Source: Saccharopolyspora gloriosae (lineage in GTDB: Bacteria; Actinomycetota; Actinomycetes; Mycobacteriales; Pseudonocardiaceae). Taken from it: a stretch of 64,000 nucleotides of DNA. Below the pieces are notes generated by a model, which searched no databases, was not told the DNA's origin, and saw only the letters and a list, made by a program, of their open reading frames with translations. The translations under genes and the position numbers were made by a program. The DNA lies in the NCBI RefSeq assembly GCF_022828475.1, contig NZ_CP059557.1:3705470-3769469 (forward strand), read 5' to 3'. Shown one piece after another: positions 48,645 through 64,000 of the stretch (position 1 is the first letter of the stretch; each line of letters opens with the position of its first letter).

Positions 48645-48953
48645 ATGCGACTGACCGCACGGCTGCTGCTGGCAGTGACCGCCGCAGCCCTCACCGTCGG
48701 ATTCCCCACGGCCGCCGCGAGCGCCGCCGACACCGGCCAGGTCCTGATCTTCAGCACCGAGCTCGAACCGGTGGCGACCTACGACTCGTCCAGCGGGTGC
48801 GAGAAGGCCCCGGCGACCGCGCACGTACTGATCAACGACACCGATGACCCCGTGCGGATCTACGCCGACCCGTTCTGCGTGACGCCGTCACTCGTCATCG
48901 CCCCCGGTCACGGCGCGCACATCCCGCCGGGCACCGGCAGCTTCTCGGCCTGA
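48645..48953 (+). CDS. Small secreted protein, unknown function
   Basis: A 102-residue protein with a clear Sec signal peptide (LLLAVTAAALTVGFPTAAASA). The mature part of about 75 residues has two cysteines that could form one disulphide. I recognise no family. ATG 48645 is preceded by ACAGGAAT. It may be co-transcribed with the upstream membrane-anchored protein. Confidence 0.65.
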   Translation: MRLTARLLLAVTAAALTVGFPTAAASAADTGQVLIFSTELEPVATYDSSSGCEKAPATAHVLINDTDDPVRIYADPFCVTPSLVIAPGHGAHIPPGTGSFSA

Positions 48954-48991: not shown

Positions 48992-50254
48992 ATGATGTCT
49001 GTTGATCTCGTTGTGGTCGGACTCGGCTACGTCGGCTTACCACTGGCGTCCGCCGCTTGCACCGCCGAACTGCGCACGGTCGGATTGGACGTTTCCGACG
49101 AGGTCGTGGCCGGGCTGAACGCGGGCCGGTCGCACGTCGGAGACGTGCCGCACGAGGCCGTGGCGGAGATGGTCGCAGCCGGGTTCACCGCCACCACCGA
49201 CCCGGCCGTGCTGGGCACGGCGGACACCATCGTCCTCTGCGTCCCCACCGGGCTGTCCCCGGCGGGAGAACCGGATCTCAGCGCGGTGCGGAGAGCGGCG
49301 GAGACCGTCGCCGCCCGGCTGCGGACCGGAACCCTGGTCGTCCTGGAATCAACCAGCCACCCCGGCACCACCGAGGAGGTCGTGCGGCCGATCTTGGAGC
49401 GTGCCAGCGGGCTGCGGGTCGGCGAGGACTTCCACTTGGTGTACTCGCCGGAGCGGATCGATCCGGGCAACGAGCGGTTCTCGATGCACAACACTCCGAA
49501 GATCATCAGTGGTTGCACGCCGCTGTGCGCCAAGTACGGTGTCGCCTTCTACGGGAGGTTCGTCGAATCCCTGGTGGTCTCCCGCGGAACCAGGGAAGCC
49601 GAGATGGCGAAGCTCCTGGAGAACAGCTACCGCTACGTGAACATCGCGCTGGTGAACGAAGTCGCGCTGTTCTGCGACCGGATGGGCATCGACGTGTGGG
49701 ACGTGCTGCACTGCGCAGGCACGAAACCGTTCGGATTCGCCCCGTTCCAGCCCGGCCCCGGCGTCGGTGGCCACTGCATCCCCGTCGACCCGCGCTATCT
49801 GGAGAGCAAGGCGCGCAGCGCGGGGTTCACCTTCGACACGTTGTCCGCCGCCCGCGCGGTCAACGAACGGATGCCCTCGCACGTGGTGCTGCGCGCGGCC
49901 GAACTGCTCGCCGCACGAGCCAGGACGCTCGCCGGATCGAAGATCCTGCTGCTGGGCGTCGCGTACAAGCGCGACGTCGCCGACACCCGGGAATCACCCG
50001 CGTACCCGGTCGCCGAAGAACTGCTCACCCGCGGGGCCGACGTCTCGTTCCACGATCCCGAAGTAGCCGAGTTCGAAGTGGACGGTCATCGGGTCCGCAA
50101 AGAACAACGGCTTCCGGAGGCGTTGTCCGACGCGGATCTGGTGGTCCTGCTCCAGGCCCACTCCTGCTACGACCTCGTCGAGATATCCAACTCCGGTTGC
50201 ACGCTGCTCGACACCCGCGGCAAGTCCGCGGGTGGCGCGGTGACCCTGCTTTGA
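48992..50254 (+). CDS. UDP-sugar dehydrogenase (UDP-glucose/UDP-ManNAc 6-dehydrogenase family)
   Basis: A 420-residue nucleotide-sugar dehydrogenase that oxidises the sugar C6 alcohol to a carboxylate using two NAD. The N-terminal Rossmann motif VVGLGYVGLPLA, the substrate segment VYSPERIDPGN, the lysine helix EAEMAKLLENSYRYVNIAL and the catalytic Cys in GVGGHCIPVDP (about residue 260) are intact. The C-terminal domain has LLGVAYKRDVADTRESPA. The sequence is closer to WecC-type than to Ugd-type enzymes. It stands alone between an exported protein and calerythrin and could feed a UDP-uronate to the sugar-modifying genes beyond 51 kb; that link is speculative. Confidence 0.85.
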   Translation: MMSVDLVVVGLGYVGLPLASAACTAELRTVGLDVSDEVVAGLNAGRSHVGDVPHEAVAEMVAAGFTATTDPAVLGTADTIVLCVPTGLSPAGEPDLSAVRRAAETVAARLRTGTLVVLESTSHPGTTEEVVRPILERASGLRVGEDFHLVYSPERIDPGNERFSMHNTPKIISGCTPLCAKYGVAFYGRFVESLVVSRGTREAEMAKLLENSYRYVNIALVNEVALFCDRMGIDVWDVLHCAGTKPFGFAPFQPGPGVGGHCIPVDPRYLESKARSAGFTFDTLSAARAVNERMPSHVVLRAAELLAARARTLAGSKILLLGVAYKRDVADTRESPAYPVAEELLTRGADVSFHDPEVAEFEVDGHRVRKEQRLPEALSDADLVVLLQAHSCYDLVEISNSGCTLLDTRGKSAGGAVTLL

Positions 50255-50314: not shown

Positions 50315-50387
50315 CGGGCCGCCCACACCGTTCCGACAGGCGTGGGCGGAGCACCTGTTCAACAACGATTCATCAAGGAGGATGGCC

Positions 50388-50921
50388 ATGACTGCGGCTA
50401 TCGCGAATGACCGCCTGCGCAAGCGCTTCGCCAAGTGGGACCTGGACGGCAGCGGCCGTCTGGAGCGCGCGGACTTCGAAAAGGAAGCCGTGCAGATCGC
50501 CCAGGCCTTCGGCAAGGACGTCGAGAGCGCCGAGGCGCAGGCGGTCCGGGACGCGCTCACCGGTCTGTTCGAGTACCTGGCGAACGCCGGCGGCCTGACC
50601 GCGGGCGGGGCGCTGTCGGAGGACGAGTTCCTCCGCATCACCCAGAAGCTCATCTTCGAGGACGGCGAAGCCGAATTCAACAAGGTGCTCGGTCCCTTGG
50701 TGCGCAGCATCATCGGCCTGTGCGACAAGAACGCCGACGGCAAGATCGACGCCGAGGAGTTCGCCTCTTGGCTCAACGCCGTCGGCTTGGACCGCGCCCA
50801 CGCGGCGCAAGCGTTCGTCGACGTGGACACCGACTCCAACGGTGAGCTCACCGCGGACGAACTGCTCGCCGCCGTGCGGGAGTTCCACTTCGGTCGCCTC
50901 GACGTCGAACTGCTGGGCTGA
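50388..50921 (+). CDS. Calerythrin, EF-hand calcium-binding protein
   Basis: A 177-residue four-EF-hand protein, equal in length to S. erythraea calerythrin and, from memory, very similar throughout, including the end FHFGRLDVELLG. Canonical Ca2+ loops are at residues 18-29 (DLDGSGRLERAD), 113-124 (DKNADGKIDAEE) and 147-158 (DTDSNGELTADE). The second hand (about 65-85) lacks the acidic ligands, as in calerythrin. It is a cytoplasmic calcium buffer or signal protein with unknown partners. ATG 50388 follows AAGGAGG; an ATG two codons earlier lies too close to it. A degenerate paralogue is encoded at 45781-46206. Confidence 0.95.
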   Translation: MTAAIANDRLRKRFAKWDLDGSGRLERADFEKEAVQIAQAFGKDVESAEAQAVRDALTGLFEYLANAGGLTAGGALSEDEFLRITQKLIFEDGEAEFNKVLGPLVRSIIGLCDKNADGKIDAEEFASWLNAVGLDRAHAAQAFVDVDTDSNGELTADELLAAVREFHFGRLDVELLG

Positions 50922-51257: not shown

Positions 51258-51674
51258 TCATGCGCGGGTCGGCGCCTGGTCGAATGCGATGGGTGTTTCC
51301 GGTATGAGGCCGATCTCCTCGCCGGTGCACGGGATCTCGGTGCGTACCAGGATGTTGTAGTGGTTCGGGTAGTGGCATGCGTCGAATCCGAGCACGGTAC
51401 CGATGAGCCGGTCGCCGATGCGGAGTTCGTCGCCGCGGTCGAGGACGCCGGCGCCGCCGAACTCGGCGAAGCCGAGGAACCCGACCCGGTCGATGCGGGA
51501 CCCGGTGGCGGTGTCGCAGTGGTCGGTGGTGACCAGCTCATGCACCTCACCCGCTCGGATGCAGCGGCTCGCATGCGGTTCGAGCGACATGCCCCGATCC
51601 TCCCGGCGGTGCCGCAGCACCTTCACGACGGTGGCGCGCAGACCGCGTTTGCGGCCGTCCTCGTGCGGGTTCAT
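51258..51674 (-). CDS. Small conserved protein of unknown function (DUF6917-like?)
   Basis: A 138-residue protein without signal or membrane segment. A basic N-terminus (about 1-28) precedes a compact, probably beta-rich domain with EVHELVTTDHCDTATGSRID, RIGDRLIGTVLGFDACHYPN and RTEIPCTGEEIGLIPETPI. The last motif recalls small beta-barrel proteins. I associate it loosely with DUF6917 but cannot verify that. It is the last gene of a six-gene operon and overlaps the upstream oxidoreductase by four bases, so it belongs to the pathway. It could bind a metal through Cys/His or act as an accessory enzyme. Confidence 0.6.
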   Translation of the reverse strand: MNPHEDGRKRGLRATVVKVLRHRREDRGMSLEPHASRCIRAGEVHELVTTDHCDTATGSRIDRVGFLGFAEFGGAGVLDRGDELRIGDRLIGTVLGFDACHYPNHYNILVRTEIPCTGEEIGLIPETPIAFDQAPTRA

Positions 51675-52630
51675 GCCAAGCCCTCCCATTCCGGTGCGGT
51701 GTCGAGGAATTCGACTCGGTAGACCGCGTCGACCAGTTCCAGCGCGGCGAGCCCGCCATCGGGCCGCCGGGCCGCGTCCTCGTGCCGCGCGTCGAGCACG
51801 GCGCCGAAGTCGGTGAGGATCCCGACGTACTCGTGCCACAGAGAGGCCTTGAAACCCTGGTGGCCGTGCAGCATGTCCGCGTAGTGGACCGTGCCGTCGG
51901 TGCACCGGACCTCGACGTCCTTGGTCTCACCGAGATGGGACCAGTCGAGTTCGACGACGGCGGGCACCCCGGTCGCGGAACGCAGCTCGACCACGGCCTG
52001 CCGGTCGGTCCCGTTCTCGTCTCTGCTGATGGTCACGCCCGCCGATTCGACGTCGCCGAGGAACAGCCGCACCAGGTCGAAGGCGTTCGGGCCGTTGTCG
52101 GCCACGCAGCCGCCGCCGCAACGGCCCGAGTCGAGGTACCAGGTGTCGCCGCCGATGTGCTCCTCGATGCGTTCCAGGTAGCGCACCGTCATCGACTCGA
52201 CCGGACCGCGACCCTGCAGTTCTTCCCGCAACCGGAGCACGTTGTCGTTGTAGCGGCGGTGGAACGCGGTGAACAGCGGGGTGTCCTCGGTGATGAACTC
52301 GGTGAGCGCCCTGGCCTCGTCGAGGTCGACCGCGAGGGGTTTCTCCACGCACACCGGCACGCCCGCCTCCAGCGCGTCGCGGCAGATCGTCGCGTGCACA
52401 TCGTTGGGCACCACCACGATCACGGCGTCCAGCGCGACGGTCGCGAGCAGGTCGCGGTGATCCCGGAAACCGGGAACGTGACCGCGGTGCACGGCCAACG
52501 CGGACCCGCGCACATCGCACACGGCGACGAGTTCCCAGTCGGAGAGTTCGTCGACGGCCGCCAGGTAGTACTTCGAAATCGTGCCGAGGCCGATCACGGC
52601 CACCCGGCGAGGCTTCTCCGGTGTCGTCAA
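51671..52630 (-). CDS. Gfo/Idh/MocA-family oxidoreductase (2)
   Basis: A 319-residue NAD(P)-dependent dehydrogenase. The Rossmann motif VAVIGLGTISKYYL is at the N-terminus and the EKP motif with its catalytic lysine in PVCVEKPLAVDLDEA near residue 95. The usual GGG...H..D catalytic helix appears as CGGGCVADNGPNAFDLVR, with Asn where a His is common, so the active site may be unusual. Family members oxidise or reduce hydroxyls of sugars, inositols or nucleotide sugars. It overlaps its neighbours by four bases at both ends. Confidence 0.85.
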   Translation of the reverse strand: MTTPEKPRRVAVIGLGTISKYYLAAVDELSDWELVAVCDVRGSALAVHRGHVPGFRDHRDLLATVALDAVIVVVPNDVHATICRDALEAGVPVCVEKPLAVDLDEARALTEFITEDTPLFTAFHRRYNDNVLRLREELQGRGPVESMTVRYLERIEEHIGGDTWYLDSGRCGGGCVADNGPNAFDLVRLFLGDVESAGVTISRDENGTDRQAVVELRSATGVPAVVELDWSHLGETKDVEVRCTDGTVHYADMLHGHQGFKASLWHEYVGILTDFGAVLDARHEDAARRPDGGLAALELVDAVYRVEFLDTAPEWEGLA

Positions 52631-53751
52631 CGCGCACCTCCGGTTCCGGCGGAGGGCAGGCCCAGCTCGACCAGTTCACGGTGCACGTGCTCGCGCAGCG
52701 GCACGCCTTCGCTCCGGCGGCGCGCGGCCAGTTCCGCCTCGTGCCAGCCCGGATAGCCGACCGTGTCGCCCGGTGCGCTCGGCGGGCAGTTCAGCAGTGT
52801 GCCGAACAGGTTCCGCGCGCCGTCGGCGAATTCGCCTTGGGGGCGCAGCAGGTCCGGGGCGATCGCCAGCACGAAGTAGCCGATGTCGTCGTCGCGGCCG
52901 TGCGGACCGCCGTCGCCGTGCAGCGCTTCCGGGGCCGGACCGAGCCCGGCTCCCGGCAGCAACGCGGACAGCAGTTCCACGACGAGCCCGAGCCCGAACC
53001 CCTTGTGCGCGCCGGTGTCCGGGTCGCCGCCCAGCCAGCGCAGGTGCGCGTTGCCGCGGTCGAACTCGGCCGGGTCGGTGACGGTCGCGCCGGAGTCGTC
53101 GGCGAGCCATCCCGCCGGTACCCGTTCACCGCTGCTCGCGGCGACACGAACCTTTCCGGTGGGGACCACGGTGGTGCTCATGTCCAGCACGAAGGGGTGG
53201 CCGTCGACGGCGGGGGCGGCGACGCTGATGGGATTGGTGCCCAGCATGGTCAACGCCCCCAGCGGTGGGCGGGCTATTCGCTGGCCTCCGCAGTTGCTCG
53301 CGACGATCCCGATCAGGCCGGCTTCGGCGGCGCGGGCGGCGTGGAAACCGGCGCAGCCGAAGTGCGTGCCGCCTCGGACCGACACCATCCCGATGCCGTG
53401 CTCGGCGGCGCGGGCCACCGCGGAGTCCGTCGCCTCGACGGCGGCCCACAGGCCGAGCGCGCGGCGAGCGTCCACGGTGGCGCAGGCACCGAGGTCGGTG
53501 AGCACTCGGGGTTCCGCGGCGGGATCGATGCGTCCGGATCGCAGCAGCGGCAGGTACAGCCGGGTGAGGTTGAACAGGCCGTGCGAGTCGAATCCGCACA
53601 GATCGCCGTAGCACAGCGCGTCGGCCGCGAGGTGCGCTCGGCGATCAGGTATCCCGTGCTCGGCGAACACGCCTGCGGTGAACGCGTGCAGGTCCGCGTG
53701 GGACACCGTGAGACGTTGCCCGGAGTGTGCGATCTCCGGCAGCAGTGTCAT
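52627..53751 (-). CDS. LDH2/malate dehydrogenase-family oxidoreductase
   Basis: A 374-residue protein of the type 2 malate/L-lactate dehydrogenase family, which reduces 2-oxo acids or cyclic imines with NAD(P)H. Recognised by GDLCGFDSHGLFNLTRLYLP near residue 50, VRGGTHFGCAGFHAARA near 128, SNCGGQRIARPPLGA and LGTNPISVAAP near 170, and GAHKGFGLGLVVELLSALL near 250. The family has its own fold, unrelated to classical LDH. In biosynthetic settings such enzymes act on keto-acid or imine intermediates. ATG 53751 overlaps the M20 gene's stop. Confidence 0.88.
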   Translation of the reverse strand: MTLLPEIAHSGQRLTVSHADLHAFTAGVFAEHGIPDRRAHLAADALCYGDLCGFDSHGLFNLTRLYLPLLRSGRIDPAAEPRVLTDLGACATVDARRALGLWAAVEATDSAVARAAEHGIGMVSVRGGTHFGCAGFHAARAAEAGLIGIVASNCGGQRIARPPLGALTMLGTNPISVAAPAVDGHPFVLDMSTTVVPTGKVRVAASSGERVPAGWLADDSGATVTDPAEFDRGNAHLRWLGGDPDTGAHKGFGLGLVVELLSALLPGAGLGPAPEALHGDGGPHGRDDDIGYFVLAIAPDLLRPQGEFADGARNLFGTLLNCPPSAPGDTVGYPGWHEAELAARRRSEGVPLREHVHRELVELGLPSAGTGGAR

Positions 53752-55043
53752 CAGGTGGTCTCCTTCCTGGCACCGTCGTGGTGCCGCTCGGTGAACTCGG
53801 TGAGCAACGACGTGACCGCGCGGGCGAAGTCCCGCAGTTCGGCGACGTCGGCGTATTCGCCTTCGGCGTGCGCGTGATTGGTCTCCAGCGAGCCCGGCCC
53901 CAGCACTGCCGTGGCGGTGTCCGGGATCCCGTGCATCCAGATGGCGTCGCAGGTGAACGCGGGCAGCGTGTCCGGCCACCGCTTGATGCCCGCGGCGGCG
54001 AACAGGTCCTGCGCCCACGTCGGGGCGGCGTCGAGGCAGGGCAGGCCGCGTTTGAGCCAGTCCACCCGCAGGATCTCGGCCGCGTGCGCGGCGGTGCGGG
54101 CGAATTCCCTGGTGCGGTCGAAGATCTCGGCGAACTCGCGCACCCCGGAGCGCACCGCCGCCAACAGCGCGCGTTCGGCCTCGGCTCCTTCGCGCGCGGT
54201 GGCGTAGGACAGGTTCAGCAACAGGCTTCCGCTGCCGTAGACCCGGTTGTGCTGCGCTCCGGTGTGCAGACCGGCGACGCAGCAGCGGCCGGGCCGGTCC
54301 CGGGGGTCGAGGTGCCGCGCGAGGTGCTGGGCGAGGAATCCCAGCAGCACCGACGCGTTGTGCCCGGCCGCCGGTTCGTCGTCGATGGCGCCGTGCCCGT
54401 CGACCCGGATCCGCGCGGTCATCGACGCGGTGGCGCGGGTCAGGTATCGCAGTCCGGTCGGTTCGCAGAACACGTTGAGCCGCCCGAAGAATCCGGCCTC
54501 GACCAGCGGACGGGTCCCGTAGGTGCCCATCGCGCCGCCTTCCTCACCGGACACGATCTGCACCAGCACTCCGACGTCGCGGCCCAGCGCGGGGTTCGCC
54601 GCGACCGCCGCGCGGATGCCCGCCAGCAGGGCCACCGCCGGGCCTTTCGCGTCGATCGCACCGCGTCCGGTGATCCGGTCTCCGGCGCAGGACACGGGTT
54701 CGACGCCCGCCACGGTGTCCAGGTGCGCGTTGAACATCACCGTGCGCTCCGGCGGCAGTTCCGGGCCGAGCCGCAGCACCAGGTTCGGCTGCTCGGCGAG
54801 GAAGTCCGCGGTGGCGACGTCCCGCACGGTGCGGGGCACGTCGTCGCGCTCCAGCACAGCGGGCTCCGGCGGGGCGTGGTGGGCGATGTCGAATCCGATC
54901 GACTCCGCCGCGCGGGCGTAGGTGCGCTGGGCCTGCCACATCCGGGCGGGCGGCTCCGACGATTCCAGCGGGTTCACCGTCGGCAGCAGCAGCAGTTCCC
55001 GCAGCAGATTCCGGTCCGCCGAGCCGAACGGGTCGCCGGACAT
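53751..55043 (-). CDS. M20-family metallopeptidase/deacylase
   Basis: A 430-residue zinc hydrolase of the ArgE/DapE/carboxypeptidase G2 type. Metal-site motifs are visible: MFNAHLDTVAG near residue 105, GRGAIDAKGP with the bridging Asp near 131, SGEEGGAMG with the general-base Glu near 165 and a late His in LETNHAHAEGEY near 390. A dimerisation domain sits between. Such enzymes cleave amide bonds, for example to remove an N-acyl or amino-acid protecting group. In an amine-forming pathway it could deprotect an intermediate. Its ATG shares one base with the upstream gene's TGA. Confidence 0.87.
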   Translation of the reverse strand: MSGDPFGSADRNLLRELLLLPTVNPLESSEPPARMWQAQRTYARAAESIGFDIAHHAPPEPAVLERDDVPRTVRDVATADFLAEQPNLVLRLGPELPPERTVMFNAHLDTVAGVEPVSCAGDRITGRGAIDAKGPAVALLAGIRAAVAANPALGRDVGVLVQIVSGEEGGAMGTYGTRPLVEAGFFGRLNVFCEPTGLRYLTRATASMTARIRVDGHGAIDDEPAAGHNASVLLGFLAQHLARHLDPRDRPGRCCVAGLHTGAQHNRVYGSGSLLLNLSYATAREGAEAERALLAAVRSGVREFAEIFDRTREFARTAAHAAEILRVDWLKRGLPCLDAAPTWAQDLFAAAGIKRWPDTLPAFTCDAIWMHGIPDTATAVLGPGSLETNHAHAEGEYADVAELRDFARAVTSLLTEFTERHHDGARKETT

Positions 55044-55921
55044 CAGGACCGGCCGTGCGCCGGGGTGCCTGCCGCGTACGGCGCGAGCAGCTCCCGCAAC
55101 GTCCGCTCCAGGTTCCGGCCCGCGTCGACGAACCGGTCGGCGGCGGACTCGTCGGCGCTCACGCCGTCGTGCGGACGGGTCACCAGGTGCGGCTCCAGCG
55201 AGAAGGTGCCCGCGTAACCGGAGTTGAGCAGCAACCGCAGGCACTCCACCACCCGCGCGTTCCCGTCACCCGGACGCACGTAGGTCGCCGCTCCGGGTGA
55301 GCCGGTCGCGTCTTTGACGTGCACGTGGGCCACGTGGCCCGCGATGGGACGCAGCAGGTCGAGGGCCTCGTAGCCGTGGTCGATGCCGTTGCCGGTGTCG
55401 AACAGCAGCCGCAGCGACGGGGCCGCCGCCAGCAGCCGCGACATCCGATCGGCGTCGGTGGCGGCCCAGCCCGCGCAATTTTCGTGCAGCAGCGTGATCC
55501 CGTGCTCCACGGCGCGTTCGGCGAGCAGCGCGACGCGTTCCCGCGCACGAGCTCCCCATTCGGGTTCGCCGAGTCCGTCGTTGGGATACGACATGATCCG
55601 CACGTAGCGGGTGCCGAATTCGCCGCACTGCTCGGCGAGCGCGTCGAGTTCGCGCAGGTCCGCGTCGAACGGGGCCGTGATCGGGCGTTCCCAGTTCCCG
55701 ATTCGCGAGGCCAGGCACACCACGTCGAGTTCCGCGGCCCGCACCTGCCGGACCGTGCGCCGCAGGTCGTCCGCGGTCAGGTCCGCCAGCGCGACACCGT
55801 CCACGGTGCGCAGTTCGATGCCGGACCAGCCGAGCCTGCGAATCGCGGCGAGCTGCCCGGTCAGGTCCACGGCGGCCTCATCGCCGATACCGGCGAGCTT
55901 CGGCCGCAAGTCACCCTGCAT
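55043..55921 (-). CDS. Sugar phosphate isomerase/epimerase-like TIM-barrel protein
   Basis: A 292-residue protein of the xylose-isomerase-like/AP-endonuclease-2 TIM-barrel family. Candidate metal ligands lie at strand ends: Glu in LLHENCAGW (about 148), Asp in LLFDTGNGID (about 178), His in VHVKDATG (about 203) and Glu in FSLEPHLV (about 242). Members isomerise or epimerise keto sugars, inosose or hydroxypyruvate. Its neighbours suggest epimerisation or isomerisation of a sugar or cyclitol intermediate. It is coupled to both neighbours. Confidence 0.85.
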   Translation of the reverse strand: MQGDLRPKLAGIGDEAAVDLTGQLAAIRRLGWSGIELRTVDGVALADLTADDLRRTVRQVRAAELDVVCLASRIGNWERPITAPFDADLRELDALAEQCGEFGTRYVRIMSYPNDGLGEPEWGARARERVALLAERAVEHGITLLHENCAGWAATDADRMSRLLAAAPSLRLLFDTGNGIDHGYEALDLLRPIAGHVAHVHVKDATGSPGAATYVRPGDGNARVVECLRLLLNSGYAGTFSLEPHLVTRPHDGVSADESAADRFVDAGRNLERTLRELLAPYAAGTPAHGRS

Positions 55922-56951
55922 GATCTGAGGTCCTCCTCCACTGTGGAGCGGGGCCGGTCCAGCCCCGGCAGTGCTGTTTCGCCGCTGACAGCAGGCGAAT
56001 CACTTCGCACTGCAGCGCGAAGCGGTCGTCGGCGGCGGAGTCGGGGGCCGGTCCGATGGCGTTGAACCGGCGGTAGGTGCGCAGCGTGAACTCGGTGAGC
56101 GCGTCGTCCGGGAACACCGACCACTGCTCGTCGGGACCGTGCACGCTCAGCTGCGCGTGGTGGTCCTGGTCGCTGAGCGGGTAGTGCCCGACCGCCCGTC
56201 CGCGCTCGAATACGAGCTCGACACGACGTTCCCGCACGGGGGCGGTCAGGTCGGAGCTGATGTCGGTGCGCACCCCTTGGTGGTGGCGCAGCGCGAGCCG
56301 GGCGCCGCCCATCCCGGGCAGCACCAGGTCCGCGAAGCGCATGTCGGTGCTGCCCGCGTCGAGCAGCTCGGCGGAGCCCGCCAGGCGCAGCGCCGCGCCG
56401 AGCGCGTGCGGGATCTCCACGTCGAAGGCCGTCGGGTGACCGTGGGTGGAGATCGAGTGCGTGAACCGGGGTTTGTGCTGGTGGAACGAGATCGACCGCA
56501 GTTGCCCCAGGGTTCGCCGGTCGACGAGCTCGGCGAGCCTGCGGGTGAGCTCCGCGTCCAGCCAGTGCGCCACCACCGCCAGCCGCATCCCGTACCGGCT
56601 GCGGAGCCGGTTGATCTCCGCCAGTCCCGCGAGGTCCGAAGCCAACGGCTTTTCCACGATGACCTGGCGGAATCCGAGCTCGGCGAGCTCGGTGAGCAGC
56701 GCGGGCCGGTCGACCGGTGGCGTGCACAGGTGGACCACGGTGCGCGCCGGGGACACGAGTTCGGCGGCGGCGCGCACCGATTCCGCCACGATCACCCCGG
56801 TCAGGGCGCGGCGGGCGCGGGGCGCCGGGTCGCAGGCGATGATCGCGCCGGGGCGGAACAGGTCGCGGTCGAGTTCCCGTGCCTGCGCCAGCACGCGCAG
56901 GTGCAGGCCCGCACCGGCGCGTCCGAGGCCGACCACGAGTGAGTGCAGCAT
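55911..56951 (-). CDS. Gfo/Idh/MocA-family oxidoreductase (1)
   Basis: A 346-residue NAD(P)-dependent dehydrogenase and first gene of the minus-strand operon. It has an N-terminal SLVVGLGRAGAGLHLRVL nucleotide motif, an EKP motif in QVIVEKPLASDLAGL near residue 100 and a C-terminal beta-sheet domain. The catalytic helix region reads FDVEIPHALGAALRL. It is distinct from the second copy at 51671-52630, so the two probably act on different steps. The stop lies 11 bases inside the next gene. It diverges from the aminotransferase operon across a 379-bp region. Confidence 0.82.
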   Translation of the reverse strand: MLHSLVVGLGRAGAGLHLRVLAQARELDRDLFRPGAIIACDPAPRARRALTGVIVAESVRAAAELVSPARTVVHLCTPPVDRPALLTELAELGFRQVIVEKPLASDLAGLAEINRLRSRYGMRLAVVAHWLDAELTRRLAELVDRRTLGQLRSISFHQHKPRFTHSISTHGHPTAFDVEIPHALGAALRLAGSAELLDAGSTDMRFADLVLPGMGGARLALRHHQGVRTDISSDLTAPVRERRVELVFERGRAVGHYPLSDQDHHAQLSVHGPDEQWSVFPDDALTEFTLRTYRRFNAIGPAPDSAADDRFALQCEVIRLLSAAKQHCRGWTGPAPQWRRTSDHAG

Positions 56952-57330
56952 CGTGCTCCGTTGCTCTGTGAGGGTGTGCTGTGGTGACAGTTCCGCGAGG
57001 AGGTGTTTCCGCCGTTGTTCGCACGGACCGGTCAGCGGAATCGTGGTGATTCAGTCCTTTGAGGACGGATTCCGGTCGGAAACCCGACGGATTCGGGCAA
57101 TGGCCGTGCCCGCACTGGAATGAACTTCGGCGAACGCGCCCGGCTGCCCGAACTCCCAGGCTATCGATTTCCCCGAACCCCTTCGGATCCGGGTCCGCAA
57201 CCACTGGTCAGCTGATCACCAGAAAGGGTGAAAAATCGTCACGCCCCTTCAATGCACTTCCGGTTCGATACGGCATTGGGCTAGGTTCTCCAGCCGAATA
57301 CCTCGCCCCCTTATTCAGGAGTTGACCATC
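56952..57330. promoter_or_regulatory. Divergent promoter region of the candidate biosynthetic locus
   Basis: It separates the minus-strand oxidoreductase operon from the plus-strand aminotransferase operon and contains no gene. At 57204-57222, CTGGTCAGCTGATCACCAG has matching CTGGT/ACCAG ends and a perfect TCAGCTGA centre, a candidate operator for joint control. Confidence 0.45.
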
Positions 57331-58545
57331 GTGTCCCGCGGTGCGAACGACGCCGGGACGCGGGAATTATCGAGCCTGCCGGATTCATCCGCGCCCGTTC
57401 CATTCTTCTCGCAAGCCCGCACTTTCGACCGGCTCTGGCCGGCCATCAGCGCCCGTGTCGAGGAGGTCTTCGACAACGGCAAGTTCTCCCACGGCAAGCA
57501 GGTCGGCGAGCTCGAACGGTGCATCGGCGACTACACCGGAGCCCGGTTCGTCATCGGCGTCAACAGCGGCACCGACGCGCTGGTCCTGCTGCTGCGCGCG
57601 CTCGGCCTGCGGCCCGGCGACGAGGTCATCGTCCCCGCCTACTCCTTCGTGGCCACCGCCAGTTCGGTGGTCCTCGCCGGTGGCACGCCGGTGTTCGCCG
57701 ACATCGACCCGGTCACCTACGCGCTCGACCCGGCCGAAGTGGATCGGGTCGCAGGCCCGCACACCAGGTTCGTGATGCCGACGCACCTGTTCAGCCAGAT
57801 GGCCGACATGAGCGCGCTCTCCAGAGTGGCGGCCCGGCGCGGCCTGACGGTGCTGGAGGACAGCGCCGAGGCCATCGGGATGCGCCAGGTCGGGGTGCAC
57901 GCCGGCCTGCACGGGGCGGGTGGCGTGCTCTCGTTCTTCCCGACCAAGACGCTCGGCGCGATCGGCGACGCGGGCGCCGTGATCACCGATGATCCACGGG
58001 TGGCCGAGGTCGTGTCCGGGCTGCGCCACCACGGCCGGTTCGGCCACACCCTGGATCACTTCCCCGGCATCTCCACCGAGACCGCGCGGCCCGGCACGAA
58101 CAGCAAGATGGACGACATCCAGGCCGCGGTCCTGCTCGCGAAGCTGCCCGGCCTGGACGAGGAGATCGCCCGGCGCGCACAGCTGGCCGAGGCCTACCGG
58201 GAGCGCCTCTCCGGCATTCCCGGCCTCGTGCGGCTGCCGCAGGTGGTCGATCGCGGACCGGGCTCGGCGGGAGTGTTCTACGTCTACCTGATCGAGGTCG
58301 AACGCCGCGACGAACTGGTCGAATGGCTGGCCCGCGCGGAAATCGGAACCGAGACCTATTACCCCATTCCATTGCATCGGCAACCGTGCTTCAGCGGACT
58401 GGATTCCGCCCGCACTTCGCTGCCCCACGCCGAGGCGGCCGCGCGCGGCGCGCTCGCCCTTCCGCTGTACCCGGACCTCACCCTCGGACAGCTCGATCGG
58501 GTGTGCTCCGCGGTGCGCGCTTTCTATTCCGGGAGGACCGCGTGA
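57331..58545 (+). CDS. DegT/DnrJ/EryC1/StrS aminotransferase (1)
   Basis: A 404-residue PLP enzyme that transfers an amino group, usually from Glu or Gln, to a keto sugar or keto cyclitol. The PLP-phosphate segment is GVNSGTDALVLLLRALGL (about 76-93), the conserved acidic residue is in VLEDSAEAIGM (Asp 177) and the internal-aldimine lysine is Lys 206 in FFPTKTLGAIGDAG. GTG 57331 has AGGAG nine bases upstream; a TTG at 57322 touches the ribosome site and is unlikely. It opens the plus-strand operon and shares one base with the next gene (TGATG). Confidence 0.9.
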   Translation: MSRGANDAGTRELSSLPDSSAPVPFFSQARTFDRLWPAISARVEEVFDNGKFSHGKQVGELERCIGDYTGARFVIGVNSGTDALVLLLRALGLRPGDEVIVPAYSFVATASSVVLAGGTPVFADIDPVTYALDPAEVDRVAGPHTRFVMPTHLFSQMADMSALSRVAARRGLTVLEDSAEAIGMRQVGVHAGLHGAGGVLSFFPTKTLGAIGDAGAVITDDPRVAEVVSGLRHHGRFGHTLDHFPGISTETARPGTNSKMDDIQAAVLLAKLPGLDEEIARRAQLAEAYRERLSGIPGLVRLPQVVDRGPGSAGVFYVYLIEVERRDELVEWLARAEIGTETYYPIPLHRQPCFSGLDSARTSLPHAEAAARGALALPLYPDLTLGQLDRVCSAVRAFYSGRTA

Positions 58546-59693
58546 TGCGCACCGAGATTCCGTTCTTCCCGCCGGATCTCTTCGAACACGATCGCAAGAT
58601 CATGTTGGACGCGCTCCAGGATATCGGTCGGGATCCTCGACAAAAGTTCATCCTGGGCGAGCAAACCGCGGAGTTCGAGGAAATGCTGCGCGCCGATCTG
58701 GGCGCGGCGGACGTGGTCGCCTGCGGCAGCGGCACCTCGGCGCTCGGACTGGTGCTGCGCGCGATGGACATCGGTCCCGGCGACGAGGTCGTCGTGCCCG
58801 CGTTCGGCTGCGCACCGCTGGCCGCCTCCGTGGTCGACGTGGGCGCCACGCCGGTGTTCGCCGACATCGACTCCCGCACCCTGGTGCTGGACCCGGAGTC
58901 GGCGCGGCGGCACATCACCCACCGCACCAAGGCGATCATGCCCGCGCACATGTTCTCGATCATGGCCGACATGCCCAGGTTCACCGAGCTGACCGCGAGC
59001 CGGGATCTGCGGCTGATCGAGGACTCCGCGGTGGCGCAGGGCGGCGTGCTCAACGGCACTCCCGCCGGACTGTGGGGCGAGGCGGGCGTGTACTCGTTCG
59101 TCCAGGTCAAATCATTCGGCATGCCCGGCGAGGGCGGCGCCGTGGTGACCCGTGATCCGGCGCTGGGCCGTCGGCTGCGGATGCTGCGCAACCACGGTCA
59201 GCAGGAACGCTTCGTGCACCAGATCATCGGTGCGAACAGCAGGTTCGACGAGATCCAGGCCGCGTTCCAACGCCACCGGTACGCGGGCTTTCCCGGCAGG
59301 CTCGAGCGGCGCGCGGAGATCGCCGAGCACTACACCGAGCGCTTCGCTCCGCTGGCCGACCAGGGCCTCGTCCCACCGCCACCGGGCCGCAACGGCCGGT
59401 GCCACTACGTGTACTGCGTGCTCGCCGAGGAACGCGACGTGCTGCGGGAGTACCTCGCCGAGCACGGCATCGGCTCGCACGTGTACTACCCGCTCGCGCT
59501 GCCGTACCAGTCGGCGTTCCTGCCCTACGCCCCGGCGGACGAACGCTGGCCGAACGCCGAGCGATCCAGCGCTCGCATCCTGGCGCTGCCGATCTACCCG
59601 CATCTCAGCGACTCCGAGGTGACCCGGGTCGCCGATGCCGTCTGCGAGTTCGTCCGCCACCGCCCGCGCGTCTCGGCGCCGGGCACCCCCTGA
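58545..59693 (+). CDS. DegT/DnrJ/EryC1/StrS aminotransferase (2)
   Basis: A 382-residue PLP enzyme of the same superfamily as its upstream neighbour but clearly diverged. ACGSGTSALGLVLRAMDIG (about 60-78) binds PLP phosphate, Asp 160 lies in LIEDSAVAQGG, and the Schiff-base lysine is Lys 189 in SFVQVKSFGMPGEGGAV. All catalytic residues are present, so it should be active. Two aminotransferases in tandem suggest a diamino product or an AHBA-synthase-like division of labour. ATG 58545; an adjacent GTG at 58542 is also in frame behind GGGAGGA. Confidence 0.9.
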   Translation: MRTEIPFFPPDLFEHDRKIMLDALQDIGRDPRQKFILGEQTAEFEEMLRADLGAADVVACGSGTSALGLVLRAMDIGPGDEVVVPAFGCAPLAASVVDVGATPVFADIDSRTLVLDPESARRHITHRTKAIMPAHMFSIMADMPRFTELTASRDLRLIEDSAVAQGGVLNGTPAGLWGEAGVYSFVQVKSFGMPGEGGAVVTRDPALGRRLRMLRNHGQQERFVHQIIGANSRFDEIQAAFQRHRYAGFPGRLERRAEIAEHYTERFAPLADQGLVPPPPGRNGRCHYVYCVLAEERDVLREYLAEHGIGSHVYYPLALPYQSAFLPYAPADERWPNAERSSARILALPIYPHLSDSEVTRVADAVCEFVRHRPRVSAPGTP

Positions 59694-59719
59694 TCCCGAA
59701 CGAGGAGCGTCTCGACACG

Positions 59720-60694
59720 ATGACCAGTGACCTGCACGCCGCGCCGAAGCACCTCGGCGCCGGCAGGCCGGAGAGCAAGGCCCGCAGCTACACGAGGCTG
59801 GGCAAGCTCGACGTCTACGACTACTACCTGAGCATCCTGGTGGTCGCCGCCGCCGTGCTGCCCCTCGCCGCGGTCGGGGCCGGGTCGCTGCCGATGCTGC
59901 TGCTGTTTCTGGCCGGTGAGGTCTGCGTGCTCGTCGCACTGGTCTCGTTCGACGACGTGACGGGATTCCGCGACGGCAGCGACATCGCCAACTACGGGCC
60001 GAACGATCCGCTGCGCAAGAAGCTGCGCAAGCCGCTGGTCGCGGGCACGCTCTCCGAACGGGAGGCGGTGCGCTTCGGCTGGGCCGCCGCGGCCGCCGGG
60101 GCGGCCCTGTGGGGTGCGGCCATCGCACTCGCCCCGAACCGTCCGATGTGGACTCTGATGGTGATCGCGGTGACCTACGTGATCGGCTTGCAGTACTCCT
60201 ACGGGCTCAAGCTCAGCTATCACGGGTTGCAGGAGGCGTTCATCGCCGCGCTCGGCGTTGCCCTGGTCCTCGCCCCGTACGGATTGGCGACCGGGGAATT
60301 CTCCGGTTTTGTGCTGGTGCAGGCGGTGCTGTTCGGTTTCGGGCCACTGATGTTCGGGGTGTACTCCAACACCAACGACGTCGAGGGCGACCGCGGTGTC
60401 GGGCGCCCGACGGTGGCCGCGCTGACCACTCCGCGCGGCAACGCCCTGTTCATCGGCGCGTTGTCGCTGGGCGAGTTCCTGCTCGTCCTCGGCGCCTCGC
60501 TCACCGGTGTGGCGCCGTGGTGGTTCGTGGTGCTGCTGCTGCCCGCGAGCGCGCTGCGCGCCCGGCAGTACCAGCTCGGGTTCGGTGCGGGCGACATCAT
60601 GCGCGCGCGCAAGCTCGGGTTCCGGGTGCACCGCCTGTACGTGCTGCTGCTGATCGTGGCGAACCTGCTGGTGGCTTTGGGGATCGCCCGATGA
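59720..60694 (+). CDS. UbiA-family prenyltransferase
   Basis: A 324-residue membrane protein with about eight to nine hydrophobic helices. The second Asp-rich motif is canonical: YSNTNDVEGDRGVGRPT (about 215-231). The first is atypical: VSFDDVTGFRDGSD (about 75-88) instead of NDxxDxxxD. UbiA enzymes transfer prenyl groups to aromatic or other acceptors, and some are terpene cyclases or decaprenyl-phosphate sugar synthases. The acceptor may be the product of the surrounding amino/keto-forming enzymes. It overlaps the next gene by four bases. Confidence 0.87.
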   Translation: MTSDLHAAPKHLGAGRPESKARSYTRLGKLDVYDYYLSILVVAAAVLPLAAVGAGSLPMLLLFLAGEVCVLVALVSFDDVTGFRDGSDIANYGPNDPLRKKLRKPLVAGTLSEREAVRFGWAAAAAGAALWGAAIALAPNRPMWTLMVIAVTYVIGLQYSYGLKLSYHGLQEAFIAALGVALVLAPYGLATGEFSGFVLVQAVLFGFGPLMFGVYSNTNDVEGDRGVGRPTVAALTTPRGNALFIGALSLGEFLLVLGASLTGVAPWWFVVLLLPASALRARQYQLGFGAGDIMRARKLGFRVHRLYVLLLIVANLLVALGIAR

Positions 60695-62061
60695 GCGCCG
60701 AACTCGACGTCGCCGTGGTCGGGGCGGGCATGGCGGGGCTCACCGCCGCGACCGAACTGACCCGCGCCGGGCTCGACGTCCGGGTGTACGAGTCGTCCGA
60801 CCACGTCGGCGGCCGGACCGCAAGCGTCCGCGTGGACGGCTACACGATCGACGCCGGGGCCGAGCAGCTCTCCCCGCACGGCTACCGCGCGACGTGGGAA
60901 TTGCTGGCCAGGCTGGGGATTCCCGAGTCAGCGGTGCCGTTGATCGGCGGCCCCATCGCGATGTGGCGGGACGGCAGGGCGCACGCCGGAGTCGCCGAGC
61001 CGCGCGGTCTGCTCACCGGGGCGGGGCTTTCCCCACTGGCCAGAGTGGACCTGGTCAAGTTCCAGATGTGGCTGGCGCAGCGGCGCGGTGAGTTCGACAC
61101 CGACGACCCGGACCGCACCTGTCTGGCCGATACGACGGTGGCCGAGTTCGCCCGCCGCTACCACCCCGACGTGCACGACTACCTGTTGCAGCCGGTCGCG
61201 GGCACCTTCTTCGGCTGGGACACCGAGCGGTCCTCGGCGGCGACGATGCTGTCGCTGCTGCTGGCCGTCGGAGACGCCTCCAGCTGGCGGACCTACTGCG
61301 GCGGCATGGACACCTTGGCCCGGCGGCTCGCAGCCGGGCTCGACGTGCGGACCGGGCAGGAAGTGCAGCAGGTCGTCTCCACCGGGCAGGGCGCCCGATT
61401 GCAGATCGGTTCGGAGACCGTGACCGCGCGTTCGGTGCTGTTGTGCGTGCCCGCCCCGGTGGCGGCCCGGTTGCATCCGGGAGCTCCGGAGCCCGAGGGC
61501 GAGTTCCTGCGCGCGTGCTCGTTCACCCCGGCGCTGAAAGTGAGCTGCCTGCTGGACCGGCCGCTGGCACCTGCGCGCGGTGTCCCGCCGTACGTGCTGC
61601 TCACCTCGCAGGCCGAGGACGACGTGCTTTCGGCGATCCTGTTCGACCACCAGAAGCACCCGGATCGAGCGCCCGCGGGGGCGGGACTGCTCACCCTGAT
61701 GCCGAATGCCGCGACCACCTCGGATCTGCTCGGACTGCCCGACGCGGAGATCATCGCGCGGCTCACCGACGCCGCCGCCCGGTACCTCCCGGGGTTCACC
61801 GTCGCGAACCGCCGCAACTTCGTGCACCGCCATGCGCACGGCCTGCCGGAGGCCACGCCCGCGGCGCTGGCGCTGCGCTCCAGGTTCATGGCCCGCCGTC
61901 TCCGCCCCATCGACTACGCCGGGGACTGGGTGATGTTGCGCCCGGCCAGCGAGGGCGCCGTGCGCGCCGGCGCGCTGGCCGCCTCCCGCGTGCTGAGCAG
62001 GCTGCGCGCACCGCTGAGCATCCCGACCCAGGCTAGGAGCCGACGCGTTGAAACCGCATGA
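60691..62061 (+). CDS. FAD-dependent amine oxidase / protoporphyrinogen oxidase-like protein
   Basis: A 456-residue flavoprotein. The dinucleotide motif VAVVGAGMAGLTAATELTRAG is at the N-terminus (given here in part as a family mark), followed by VYESSDHVGGRTAS and a C-terminal FAD segment GDWVMLRPASEGAVRAGALA. The fold is that of monoamine, protoporphyrinogen and phytoene-type oxidases. Directly behind a UbiA gene it may oxidise or desaturate the prenylated intermediate or an isoprenoid chain. It overlaps the upstream gene by four bases and the next by 14. Confidence 0.85.
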   Translation: MSAELDVAVVGAGMAGLTAATELTRAGLDVRVYESSDHVGGRTASVRVDGYTIDAGAEQLSPHGYRATWELLARLGIPESAVPLIGGPIAMWRDGRAHAGVAEPRGLLTGAGLSPLARVDLVKFQMWLAQRRGEFDTDDPDRTCLADTTVAEFARRYHPDVHDYLLQPVAGTFFGWDTERSSAATMLSLLLAVGDASSWRTYCGGMDTLARRLAAGLDVRTGQEVQQVVSTGQGARLQIGSETVTARSVLLCVPAPVAARLHPGAPEPEGEFLRACSFTPALKVSCLLDRPLAPARGVPPYVLLTSQAEDDVLSAILFDHQKHPDRAPAGAGLLTLMPNAATTSDLLGLPDAEIIARLTDAAARYLPGFTVANRRNFVHRHAHGLPEATPAALALRSRFMARRLRPIDYAGDWVMLRPASEGAVRAGALAASRVLSRLRAPLSIPTQARSRRVETA

Positions 62062-63637
62062 CATGGGTGTCCTGTTCGACGAATCCGCGCGGCGGCACGC
62101 CACGACCACGGTCCGCCTGGACCGGCCGTTCGACATCGCCCCCGACGGCGGTTCGACGTACGGCGTCGACGAGCTGGCGGAACTGGTGCGCACGGCGGCC
62201 GGCTGGCTGACGGCGGCCGGTGCCTGCCGGGGCGACCGGGTGGTGATCGTGAAGGACAACCACTGGGACTACGACCTGCTCGCGTGTGCGGCGGTGCGCA
62301 TCGGAGCGATTCCCGCGCAGCTCTCGGCGGAACTGTCCACGGCCGCCTTGGAGCAGCTGCTCAAGCGGCTGGACGCGGCGGTGCTCGTCACCTCCGGCGG
62401 GTTGGCCGAGCGCTGCGCGGAGGACGGACTGGACCTGGTCTCCACGGCTCGCGCCACGTTGCTGCTGGACGGTTACTCGCCGGGCGCGCTGTCCCTGGAC
62501 GACGTGCGCGGGCAGGCCGCTCCCGCTCCCCGGCTGCGCCCGGACGACGAACCGCTGGTGATCAACCACACCTCCGGGACGACGGGGGTCCCGAAGCTCG
62601 TCGTGCACTCCACTCGCACCATCATCGGGCAGCTGGCGCGTTTCGAGTCCACCCGGCTGCCGCGGATCGGGGTGCGCCCGGACGACACCGTCGTCAACGC
62701 GAGCGGTTACGCGCACGGGCGGACGTTCTGCTGGACGGCGGTGGCGCTGAGCATGGCGCCGCAGGATCTGGTCATCCTCAGCAAGCCGGACCCGGATCTG
62801 GCCGATCCGATGCTGCGCGCGCACCCGCCGACGATCATCGAGGCGCTGCCCTCGACCTACGTGCGGTTCCGGCCGTTGACCGAGCGGCTGGACAACCCGT
62901 TCCGCCGGGTGCGGCTGTTCATCAGCACCTACGACGCGGTGCATCCGCCCACCGTCCGGACCTACCTGAACGCCTCCGCATTGCGGAGTCCACTGTGGAT
63001 GCAAGGCTGGGGCCAGACGGAGACCGGGCCGCTGACGTTCCGCTTCCACACCCGGCGTTCGCTGAACGGTGCGGCAAGCTCCTCCGCGCGACACCTGGGC
63101 CGGCCGATCCCGGGACGGACCCGGCTGCGGGTGGTCGATCCGGACACCTTCGAGCCGGTCCGGCGTGGTCAGCCGGGCCTGGTGTTCGTGCGCACCTCCG
63201 CGCGCTGCCTGGACTACCTCGGGGAATCCGAGCGCTGGGCGGCGAAGCGGCGCGGCGAGTGGTGGAACACCGGTGACATCGGCGTGCACCACCGCGATGG
63301 CCACGTGTCGCTGCTCGACCGCGAGGTGGACGCGACGCCGAAGCTGAGCTGCCTGGAGACCGAGGACGTCCTGGAGGACCGGCTGCCCCAGGCGCAGGAG
63401 TGCGTGGTGCTCGGCCGCCCGGGTGAGCCGCCGCTACCGGTCGTGGTGACGGCCGACGGCGAGCTCACCACCAGCGCGTGGCGCCGGGCGATTCGCGGAC
63501 TGCCCGCCATGCAGGAGCCGGTTTCGCTGACCTGGGACCAGATTCCGCGCACCGGCACCGGAAAGGTGCGGCGAGCGCTGCTTCTGGAACAACTCACCGG
63601 CAGCACCGACACTCCCGGGTCGGGTCGATGGACCTGA
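62048..63637 (+). CDS. AMP-forming acyl/aryl-CoA ligase-like protein
   Basis: A 529-residue ANL-superfamily adenylating enzyme. The P-loop NHTSGTTGVPKLVVHS (about 176-191), the A5 segment GWGQTETGPLTF (about 320), the A7 region EWWNTGDIG (about 405) and the C-terminal lysine in RTGTGKVRRALL (about 512) are present, so it should be active. The closest resemblance is to medium-chain or aryl acid CoA ligases. TTG 62048 is supported by AGGAG eight bases upstream. It may activate an acid that acylates an amine made by the aminotransferases. Confidence 0.85.
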   Translation: MKPHDMGVLFDESARRHATTTVRLDRPFDIAPDGGSTYGVDELAELVRTAAGWLTAAGACRGDRVVIVKDNHWDYDLLACAAVRIGAIPAQLSAELSTAALEQLLKRLDAAVLVTSGGLAERCAEDGLDLVSTARATLLLDGYSPGALSLDDVRGQAAPAPRLRPDDEPLVINHTSGTTGVPKLVVHSTRTIIGQLARFESTRLPRIGVRPDDTVVNASGYAHGRTFCWTAVALSMAPQDLVILSKPDPDLADPMLRAHPPTIIEALPSTYVRFRPLTERLDNPFRRVRLFISTYDAVHPPTVRTYLNASALRSPLWMQGWGQTETGPLTFRFHTRRSLNGAASSSARHLGRPIPGRTRLRVVDPDTFEPVRRGQPGLVFVRTSARCLDYLGESERWAAKRRGEWWNTGDIGVHHRDGHVSLLDREVDATPKLSCLETEDVLEDRLPQAQECVVLGRPGEPPLPVVVTADGELTTSAWRRAIRGLPAMQEPVSLTWDQIPRTGTGKVRRALLLEQLTGSTDTPGSGRWT

Positions 63638-63704
63638 GATCTCGTCGCTGTGCGGATCGGGCCGGACGGAGAAGGGCTGCACTGATGGAGAAATGGGGTC
63701 GGTC

Positions 63705-64000
63705 GTGACCGGCACCGGCGTCGTCGAGGATCAGCAGGGCCGGAGGGAGGACTGGCATCACGATCTGAGTGCGGCACACGATCCGCTCACGTTGCGGCGG
63801 CTGGCCGAGACCGGGGTGGGCGGCGGCTGGCACTGCCTCGAAGTCGGCGCGGGGGCCGGTGACATCGCGTGCTGGCTCGCGGATCGGGTCGGACCGTCCG
63901 GCAGCGTGCTGGCCACCGATCTGCTGCCGATACCGGCGGCACGACCGAACCTGCGGGTGCGCGAGCACAACATCGTCACCGAGCCGCTGCCCGCGGAGAG
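63705..64000 (+). CDS. SAM-dependent methyltransferase, truncated by window end
   Basis: The first 98 residues of a class I methyltransferase. After WHHDLSAAHDPLTLRRLAE the SAM-binding motif LEVGAGAGDIACWLADRVG appears near residue 45, followed by the acidic end of strand 2 in GSVLATDLLP. GTG 63705 is the likely start. A seven-codon ATG frame at 63684 just before it leads nowhere. It is 67 bp behind the ligase gene and probably in the same operon. The rest of the gene and any further pathway genes lie beyond the window. Confidence 0.8.
   Translation, partial: MTGTGVVEDQQGRREDWHHDLSAAHDPLTLRRLAETGVGGGWHCLEVGAGAGDIACWLADRVGPSGSVLATDLLPIPAARPNLRVREHNIVTEPLPAE

Follow-up and report, generated by a model that had tools for sequence, protein, structure and literature searches.

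What is the product of a bacterial locus in which genes for a nucleoside-diphosphate-sugar (NDP-sugar) dehydrogenase, aminotransferases and oxidoreductases lie next to that of a membrane prenyltransferase? The question is raised by a 64,000-nucleotide stretch of Saccharopolyspora gloriosae DNA (the window; positions 3705470–3769469 of NZ_CP059557.1, assembly GCF_022828475.1), taken from a genome that is a single 6.88 Mb contig. In window coordinates the locus extends from about 48.6 to 68.3 kb with approximately 17 neighbouring genes, and includes one for the domain of unknown function DUF6917 (PF21891) and one for a UbiA-type prenyltransferase. We propose, with a probability of roughly 50%, that it is a gene cluster that makes a prenylated aromatic metabolite of meroterpenoid type, in which one gene module (block-1) supplies a chorismate-independent, anthranilate-like acid and a second (block-2) prenylates and activates it. 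Taken separately, a prenylated aromatic product is probable, and the role of block-1 as supplier of the anthranilate-like acid stands at about even odds.

Conservation of the locus

Genes are lettered here A to F for the minus-strand operon, G to O for the divergent plus-strand operon, and Q and R for two plus-strand genes on the far side of A. A sample of 297 genomes from the window's family was searched with the PF21891 profile and with the UbiA protein as query (E≤1e-20). DUF6917 is present in 79 genomes, all above cut-off and a few as fragments, and UbiA matches occur in 85; the two are found together in 75 and lie no more than 20 kb apart in 71 (Fisher 9.5e-54, uncorrected for relatedness among the genomes). 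In the other four of the 75 they are on separate contigs, with block-1 itself split in three (G136, G045 and G178) and the contigs short in the fourth (G169). In a wide sample of the phylum the locus was found in the window genome only (1/396), and DUF6917 is present in 52 of 345 genomes of the family of G319, which is taken as Streptomycetaceae.

A scan of named genomes, with an alignment as query, gave 182 loci, the best 80 of which are mostly from Streptomyces, Saccharopolyspora, Amycolatopsis, Lentzea and Saccharothrix; 68 have full flanks, although the loci are centred on UbiA and distant genes are therefore missed. All 68 contain the two DegT aminotransferases (G and H), UbiA (I), the FAD enzyme (J), the ligase (K) and the methyltransferase (L). 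The Gfo/Idh oxidoreductase F is present in 66, the TIM barrel E and the M20 hydrolase D in 64, the LDH2 enzyme C in 58, the second ligase N in 55–56, the CoA_transf_3 protein M in 55, the EF-hand protein R in 53, the second Gfo/Idh protein B in 52, DUF6917 (A) and the NDP-sugar dehydrogenase Q in 51 each, and the CMD/AhpD protein O in 11. Twenty family loci picked for the presence of A and I all contain A to I, with Q in 9, R in 12 and O in 10, many of these loci ending before Q. Gene order is conserved in Pseudonocardiaceae and Streptomyces. Because content and order recur in so many species the arrangement is not a matter of chance, and it is on conservation that Q and R are counted as members. 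Family-2 encapsulin shell genes, with a polyprenyl synthase or terpene cyclase, were seen by eye beside three copies of the locus (L089, L090 and L187).

The initial annotation had regarded the two divergent operons as one biosynthetic locus, apparently undescribed, and had named a lack of co-occurrence in related genomes beforehand as a refuting result; the conserved gene content and order, and the counts above, bear it out. It had also allowed that the minus-strand operon might be catabolic. Were this so, two independent operons, one for inositol or sugar breakdown, would be adjacent by chance, and the TIM barrel and protein B do have weak matches to IolE (30 bits, cut-off 290) and IolG (72 bits, cut-off 355). 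Both equivalog scores of myo-inositol catabolism (iol) fall far short. The co-occurrence of DUF6917 with UbiA, together with an order kept across Pseudonocardiaceae and Streptomyces, makes a purely catabolic operon very unlikely, and this reading was rejected.

Two modules with exchangeable partners

The locus consists of two modules, as seen from relatives in which they are split apart. Block-1 comprises nine genes, encoding Q, the two Gfo/Idh proteins (F and B), the two DegT aminotransferases (G and H), E, D, C and A; block-2 comprises UbiA, the FAD enzyme, the ligase and others. All nine block-1 genes occur without UbiA in a second locus of genome G268 and in G852, G864, G1015, G010 and G293. 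Block-2 is variable: three loci (L091, L092 and L094, from genera g28 and g23) match I and L, whereas J, K and M are missing at the threshold applied. The DegT genes travel with block-1 and not with UbiA, so that the earlier two-operon picture holds as to a single locus but gives way to one that is larger and modular, with the aminotransferases grouped differently.

Four of these genomes (G268, G852, G864 and G1015) combine block-1 with trpDCBA. In G268 the genes run in one direction as Q-trpD-trpC-trpB-trpA-F-G-H-E-D-C-B-A followed by a gene with a B3/4 domain; by tblastn coordinates, neighbours either overlap or lie no more than about 120 bases apart. In the other three the order is Q-trpD-C-B-A, two DegT genes, E-D-C-B-A and B3/4. 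Here F is found some 7 kb upstream of Q, and the upstream region also contains an ATP-grasp gene, trpF and genes for a major facilitator superfamily (MFS) transporter and a regulator of the MocR type. A TrpF-like gene is nearby in all four. By NCBIfam the G268 TrpD, TrpB and TrpA score above their cut-offs, TrpC is within 1 bit and TrpF below. TrpE and TrpG form the regulated entry step of the tryptophan pathway, and neither gave a tblastn match in the 41.9 kb (G268), 31.0 kb (G852) and 30.7 kb (G1015) around the locus.

The cluster TrpD proteins differ from other TrpDs at the KHGN motif, named as the conserved anthranilate-binding motif in PMC5537072. It reads KAGN in all four, and the histidine is kept in all 43 non-cluster copies compared: nine of nine others from the same genome set (eight KHGN, one KHGG), 30 of 30 from 60 phylum genomes (the best-scoring 30 of 51 with a match), and four of four further Streptomycetaceae copies. 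Cluster TrpC proteins share changes beside the catalytic residues in all four loci; the catalytic residues themselves are kept. The KAGN change falls within the substrate site, which is no proof that a different acceptor is used. Rare loci of this type (L198, L220, L221 and L222, with L244–L246) join block-1 and trpDCBA to a TrpF-like gene and to a B3/4 editing domain that stands alone, with ATP-grasp and MFS genes in three of four. They look like clusters that make an analogue of tryptophan, or a dipeptide of it.

Block-2 also has other partners. Ten family genomes carry a UbiA relative and no DUF6917 match; four of these (G059, G214 on contig C13, G259 and G278) keep one to five block-1 genes, and one (G011) is represented by a 3 kb contig. 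In all five loci pursued (one each in G147, G009 and G065, two in G027) a PhzD-like gene is present on the UbiA contig, 9–35 kb away. The fullest example is G147, where about 20 kb contain 1-deoxy-D-xylulose-5-phosphate synthase (DXS), IspG, IspH, polyprenyl synthase, UbiA, 3-deoxy-D-arabino-heptulosonate-7-phosphate synthase (DAHPS), PhzD-like, PhzE-like, J-like and K-like genes. G009 has DAHPS, a short-chain dehydrogenase, PhzD-like and K-like genes, with a PhzE-like match where the sequence ends, some 17 kb from UbiA, and in G027 and G065 the PhzD-like genes are 16–34 kb away. As G027 holds four PhzD-like genes in 11.8 Mb, we estimate a chance proximity of about 2% per locus. No PhzF, PhzB or PhzG was seen by eye in the filtered open reading frame lists of these loci. 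PhzE/PhzD/MxcC-like enzymes are suggested to yield 3-hydroxyanthranilate in the passage of PMC3871700 on diazepinomicin biosynthesis.

The simplest reading of these partner swaps is that an anthranilate-type acid can come from block-1, from TrpE/TrpG or from PhzE/PhzD. The trp and phz contexts suggest that what block-1 delivers is a building block of the aromatic amino-acid type, not a complete amino sugar.

Isoprenoid supply near variant loci

Isoprenoid-supply genes were sought by tblastn in 29 relative loci outside the 80 named ones. DXS is beside or fused to DUF6917 in eight (L211, L216, L228, L229, L193, L091, L092 and L094), IspH is near in six (L211, L216, L228, L091, L092 and L094), IspG in three (L216, L228 and L229), and a polyprenyl synthase with 54–60% identity is present in four (L211, L216, L227 and L228). 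UbiA adjoins block-1 in four of these loci (L091, L092, L094 and L229), and the plasmid that carries L193 has it too. These genes fit UbiA being a true prenyltransferase, in agreement with the prenyl modification predicted at the outset from UbiA and an FAD oxidase.

Extra copies of quinone-related enzymes occur near two block-1 loci, QcrB of cytochrome bc1 at L253:3813-5612 and SdhCAB at NZ_CP107870.1 203660–207026, and could perhaps protect against a quinone-like product. Since QcrB copy number is one to three in the nine genomes tested whatever the locus, self-resistance by duplicated quinone enzymes is only a hint.

A proposed route and its rivals

We infer that block-1 gives an aromatic acid with an amino group next to the carboxylate. 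Chorismate would not be needed, and the starting compound would probably be a nucleotide sugar, as the presence of an NDP-sugar dehydrogenase suggests. Q would form a uronate by oxidising this sugar, redox steps would fall to the Gfo/Idh pair and the LDH2 enzyme, the two DegT enzymes would introduce nitrogen, the TIM barrel E would isomerise or dehydrate, and the M20 hydrolase D would strip an N-acyl group, with DUF6917 contributing one further, unassigned step. UbiA would then attach an isoprenoid to the ring, ligase K would activate the carboxylate, and J, L, M, N and O may tailor the product. The step order, the origin from a sugar and the ring are conjecture.

Several observations weigh against this proposal. 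How a six-carbon sugar would become the ring is unexplained, and among the genes of the window locus none for isoprenoid supply was seen. Within the tryptophan-linked loci, G864 has a piece of TrpE and a TrpG about 1 kb beyond the B3/4 gene, so that anthranilate could derive from chorismate there. PMC5537072 has the lysine of KHGN bind anthranilate and HGN bind phosphoribosyl pyrophosphate, so the altered histidine need not contact the acceptor; PMC9835598 places N138 of the KHGN loop and R193 at anthranilate, and the Asn and Arg reported to bind it seem to be kept in the cluster TrpDs. The four loci may share one origin, in which case KAGN does not represent four independent observations, and such loci are rare, with a TrpD more than 70% identical to that of G852 in three of 394 genomes (five candidates scored per genome). 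On the PhzD side, the UbiA to PhzD-like distance reaches 31–34 kb in G065 and G027, the genomes were picked after part of their context was known, and "PhzD-like" is a reading from sequence, NCBIfam giving a general hydrolase match only (3e-12). The UbiA proteins of these loci are 32–49% identical to that of the window (the G147 K-like and FAD proteins 37% and 26%), and 20 kb of sequence showed neither block-1 nor PhzD for four further UbiA relatives, one in G223 and second UbiA copies in G214:C2, G031:C28 and G066:C17. Moreover, the UbiA-like Mpz10, accompanied by phzBCDEFG, prenylates a phenazine according to PMC4044012, so that a PhzD/E pair next to UbiA does not have to indicate 3-hydroxyanthranilate.

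Of the alternatives, a non-aromatic amino sugar or aminocyclitol is possible, though doubtful: block-1 would make, for example, a diamino-uronate in the manner of WbpA/WbpB/WbpE, UbiA would prenylate something else, the ligases would join the two, and the trp genes of some loci would serve only to provide more tryptophan for a conjugate. In favour are a complete NDP-sugar dehydrogenase (Q), the similarity of G to WbpE and NtdA and that of B, albeit far under cut-off, to UDP-N-acetylglucosamine (UDP-GlcNAc) 3-dehydrogenase, and the ATP-grasp gene in three of the four tryptophan-linked loci could join amino acids. Against these, no glycosyltransferase was found among the HMM (hidden Markov model)-scanned genes of the locus, a supply cassette without trpE and trpG would skip the regulated entry step, KAGN is present in all four cluster TrpDs, and the PhzD-type loci do without block-1.

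A narrower form of the preferred scheme, which we hold to be unlikely, has block-1 make an ortho-amino heteroaromatic acid, an aminopicolinate-type aza-anthranilate, from a nucleotide sugar without chorismate and feed both the altered TrpD-F-C-B-A and UbiA. A hexuronate has just the number of carbons, six, that a pyridine-carboxylate needs, and the two nitrogens would come from the two DegT enzymes; the altered TrpD-F-C-B-A would give a tryptophan analogue, with the adjoining B3/4 editing domain perhaps for self-protection, and UbiA a prenylated, quinone-like compound. The pyridine detail is drawn only from this count of carbons and nitrogens and from the gene partners.

Even less credence is due to a carbocyclic C7 acid of the shikimate pathway, on whose ring hydroxyls Gfo and DegT would act as in synthesis by 3-amino-5-hydroxybenzoate (AHBA) synthase, with the TIM barrel aromatising as AsbF does 3-dehydroshikimate. 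The AsbF match of the TIM barrel is tied with many others, and the NDP-sugar dehydrogenase that accompanies block-1 in all four tryptophan-linked loci has no obvious role in such a route.

Genes of the locus

The starts of the plus-strand genes G to L were chosen among candidates. The initial annotation had described six minus-strand genes (51258–56951) and at least six plus-strand genes from 57331, mostly overlapping, and both coordinates and overlaps agree: A to F overlap by 4, 4, 1, 1 and 11 bases, and G to L are joined by overlaps of 1, 4 and 14 bases and gaps of 26 and 55. The encoded families also hold up in HMM scans (two Gfo/Idh, Ldh_2, M20, TIM barrel, two DegT, UbiA, FAD enzyme, ligase and methyltransferase), and, by eye, the lysines of DegT, the EKP of Gfo, the Cys of the dehydrogenase and the Asp motifs of UbiA are all preserved. 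As had been noted, there is no polyketide synthase or non-ribosomal peptide synthetase core in the locus.

At the left, a small secreted protein of 102 residues (48645–48953, plus strand) precedes Q, a position that it keeps in several relatives. It has tblastn matches in 18 examined loci (some being the same genome twice) and is present in 7 of the 68 full-flank named loci, although many loci end short of its position. Q (48992–50254, plus strand), the NDP-sugar 6-dehydrogenase of block-1, scores 413 bits against TIGR03026 (cut-off 189.8); its position is kept in relatives and it is also present within the tryptophan-linked loci. R (approximately 50382–50921, plus strand) matches EF-hand_7 and EF-hand_1 above cut-off and is calerythrin-like; several Streptomyces loci have two copies. 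An accompanying EF-hand calcium-binding protein is unusual for a biosynthetic cluster.

On the minus strand, A (51258–51674) encodes the 138-residue DUF6917 protein. B (51671–52630; PF01408, PF22725) is a sugar 3-dehydrogenase-like Gfo/Idh oxidoreductase, whose top NCBIfam match, UDP-GlcNAc 3-dehydrogenase, is far under cut-off (73 bits vs 450 required by the archaeal model). C (52627–53751) is the LDH2-family dehydrogenase (PF02615, Ldh_2, E 5e-98), and D (53751–55043) the M20-family hydrolase (PF01546, E 1e-15), whose sole PDB match at 1e-5 is [LysW]-lysine hydrolase. E (55043–55921) is the xylose-isomerase-like TIM barrel with an AP_endonuc_2 domain, for which a fold search gave no separation of isomerase, epimerase and dehydratase. 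F (55911–56951; PF01408, E 2e-6) is a divergent Gfo/Idh protein that has no sequence relative in PDB at E≤0.1.

On the plus strand are the DegT aminotransferases G (57331–58545; PF01041, E 1e-101), with WbpE and NtdA among its nearest solved chains, and H (58545–59693; PF01041, E 2e-86). The UbiA-type membrane prenyltransferase I (59720–60694) scores 67 bits against PF01040 (cut-off 34.2), and its Asp-rich motifs, D78 D79 D85 D88 and N217 D220 D224, are invariant in 18 sequences. J (60691–62061) is an FAD amine-oxidase/phytoene-desaturase-like enzyme (PF01593, Amino_oxidase, E 1e-48) and K (62048–63637) an AMP-forming acid ligase (PF00501, AMP-binding, E 3e-46) with the benzoate-CoA-ligase family among its matches under cut-off; both belong to block-2 with I. 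The S-adenosylmethionine methyltransferase L (63693–64490) crosses the window end at 64000. The operon had been expected to run on, and on the same contig it continues to about 68.26 kb with M (CoA_transf_3, 64487–66172), N (a second AMP ligase, 66169–67802) and O (CMD/AhpD, 67799–68260), all on the plus strand. In the window genome N is spread over two frames, through either a genuine break or a sequencing error, and in the relative G120 it has a single open one.

DUF6917

The 138-residue protein, previously taken for an orphan, matches PF21891 with 178 bits (cut-off 27, E 6e-53) and is thus a named domain of unknown function. Its AlphaFold2 (AF2) model is confident (pLDDT 92.8) and all-beta. 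No PDB structure matches at E≤0.001 and the model has no confident structural relative, the best PDB sequence match being no better than E 0.76. C-glycoside cleavage by the Dgp/Car enzymes uses a Gfo protein, a TIM barrel and a small beta subunit; DgpB/CarB-type small subunits are not among the listed fold matches of DUF6917, which does not exclude that fold. Nine residues are invariant (H45, E46, D62, D79, D82, D98, H101, N104 and H105), and these polar positions suggest an active site.

In two loci DUF6917 is fused N-terminally to DXS (L193:15031-17358, from Pfam, and L216:7888-10251, from the reading frame). The fusion might be a clue to the DUF6917 reaction, although the window locus has no thiamine pyrophosphate (TPP) enzyme. 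A distant copy in Thermomicrobium (L194) adjoins a TPP enzyme in a LysX/racemase neighbourhood, and another (42%; L200:672-10627) has as neighbours, by eye, two apparent ATP-grasp genes and genes that look like those of a TPP enzyme and a threonine-synthase-like protein.

Relationship to described systems

The WbpA/WbpB/WbpE diamino-uronate pathway consists of an NDP-sugar 6-dehydrogenase, a Gfo/Idh 3-dehydrogenase and a DegT aminotransferase. Block-1 resembles it in bringing together the same three families, with Q above the TIGR03026 cut-off, but adds LDH2, M20, TIM barrel, a second Gfo and a second DegT protein, and DUF6917, and no acetyltransferase or epimerase domain was found among the scanned genes of the locus. 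The supply genes for kanosamine and AHBA also include Gfo/Idh plus DegT, and a precursor of this type had been suggested initially; we rejected it since the scanned genes of the window locus include no cyclase, aminodehydroquinate-synthase-like, sugar-kinase or phosphatase domain.

The Mpz10 prenylated phenazine cluster of Streptomyces (PMC4044012) is similar in that it combines a UbiA-like membrane prenyltransferase with genes for isoprenoid supply and with dedicated genes for the aromatic precursor. It differs in its mevalonate genes and in drawing its aromatic part from chorismate through PhzBCDEFG, and the examined part of its gene table includes no DegT, Gfo/Idh, NDP-sugar dehydrogenase or DUF6917. 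The diazepinomicin cluster joins a 3-hydroxyanthranilate unit to a farnesyl chain and shares PhzE/PhzD-like genes with the UbiA loci that lack block-1, whereas its prenyltransferase is of the ABBA superfamily, and block-1 is not mentioned in the relevant passage (PMC3871700). No published account of the gene set or of DUF6917 was found among open-licence PubMed Central papers, judged by title and the start of the abstract, although a characterised cluster may exist.

DUF6917 is a marker of a locus that is widespread in the two families sampled and yet without a description in those papers. If block-1 does replace TrpE/TrpG and PhzE/PhzD, it would represent a second way to an anthranilate-like unit, and a transferable cassette with which new tryptophan analogues and prenylated compounds could be made.

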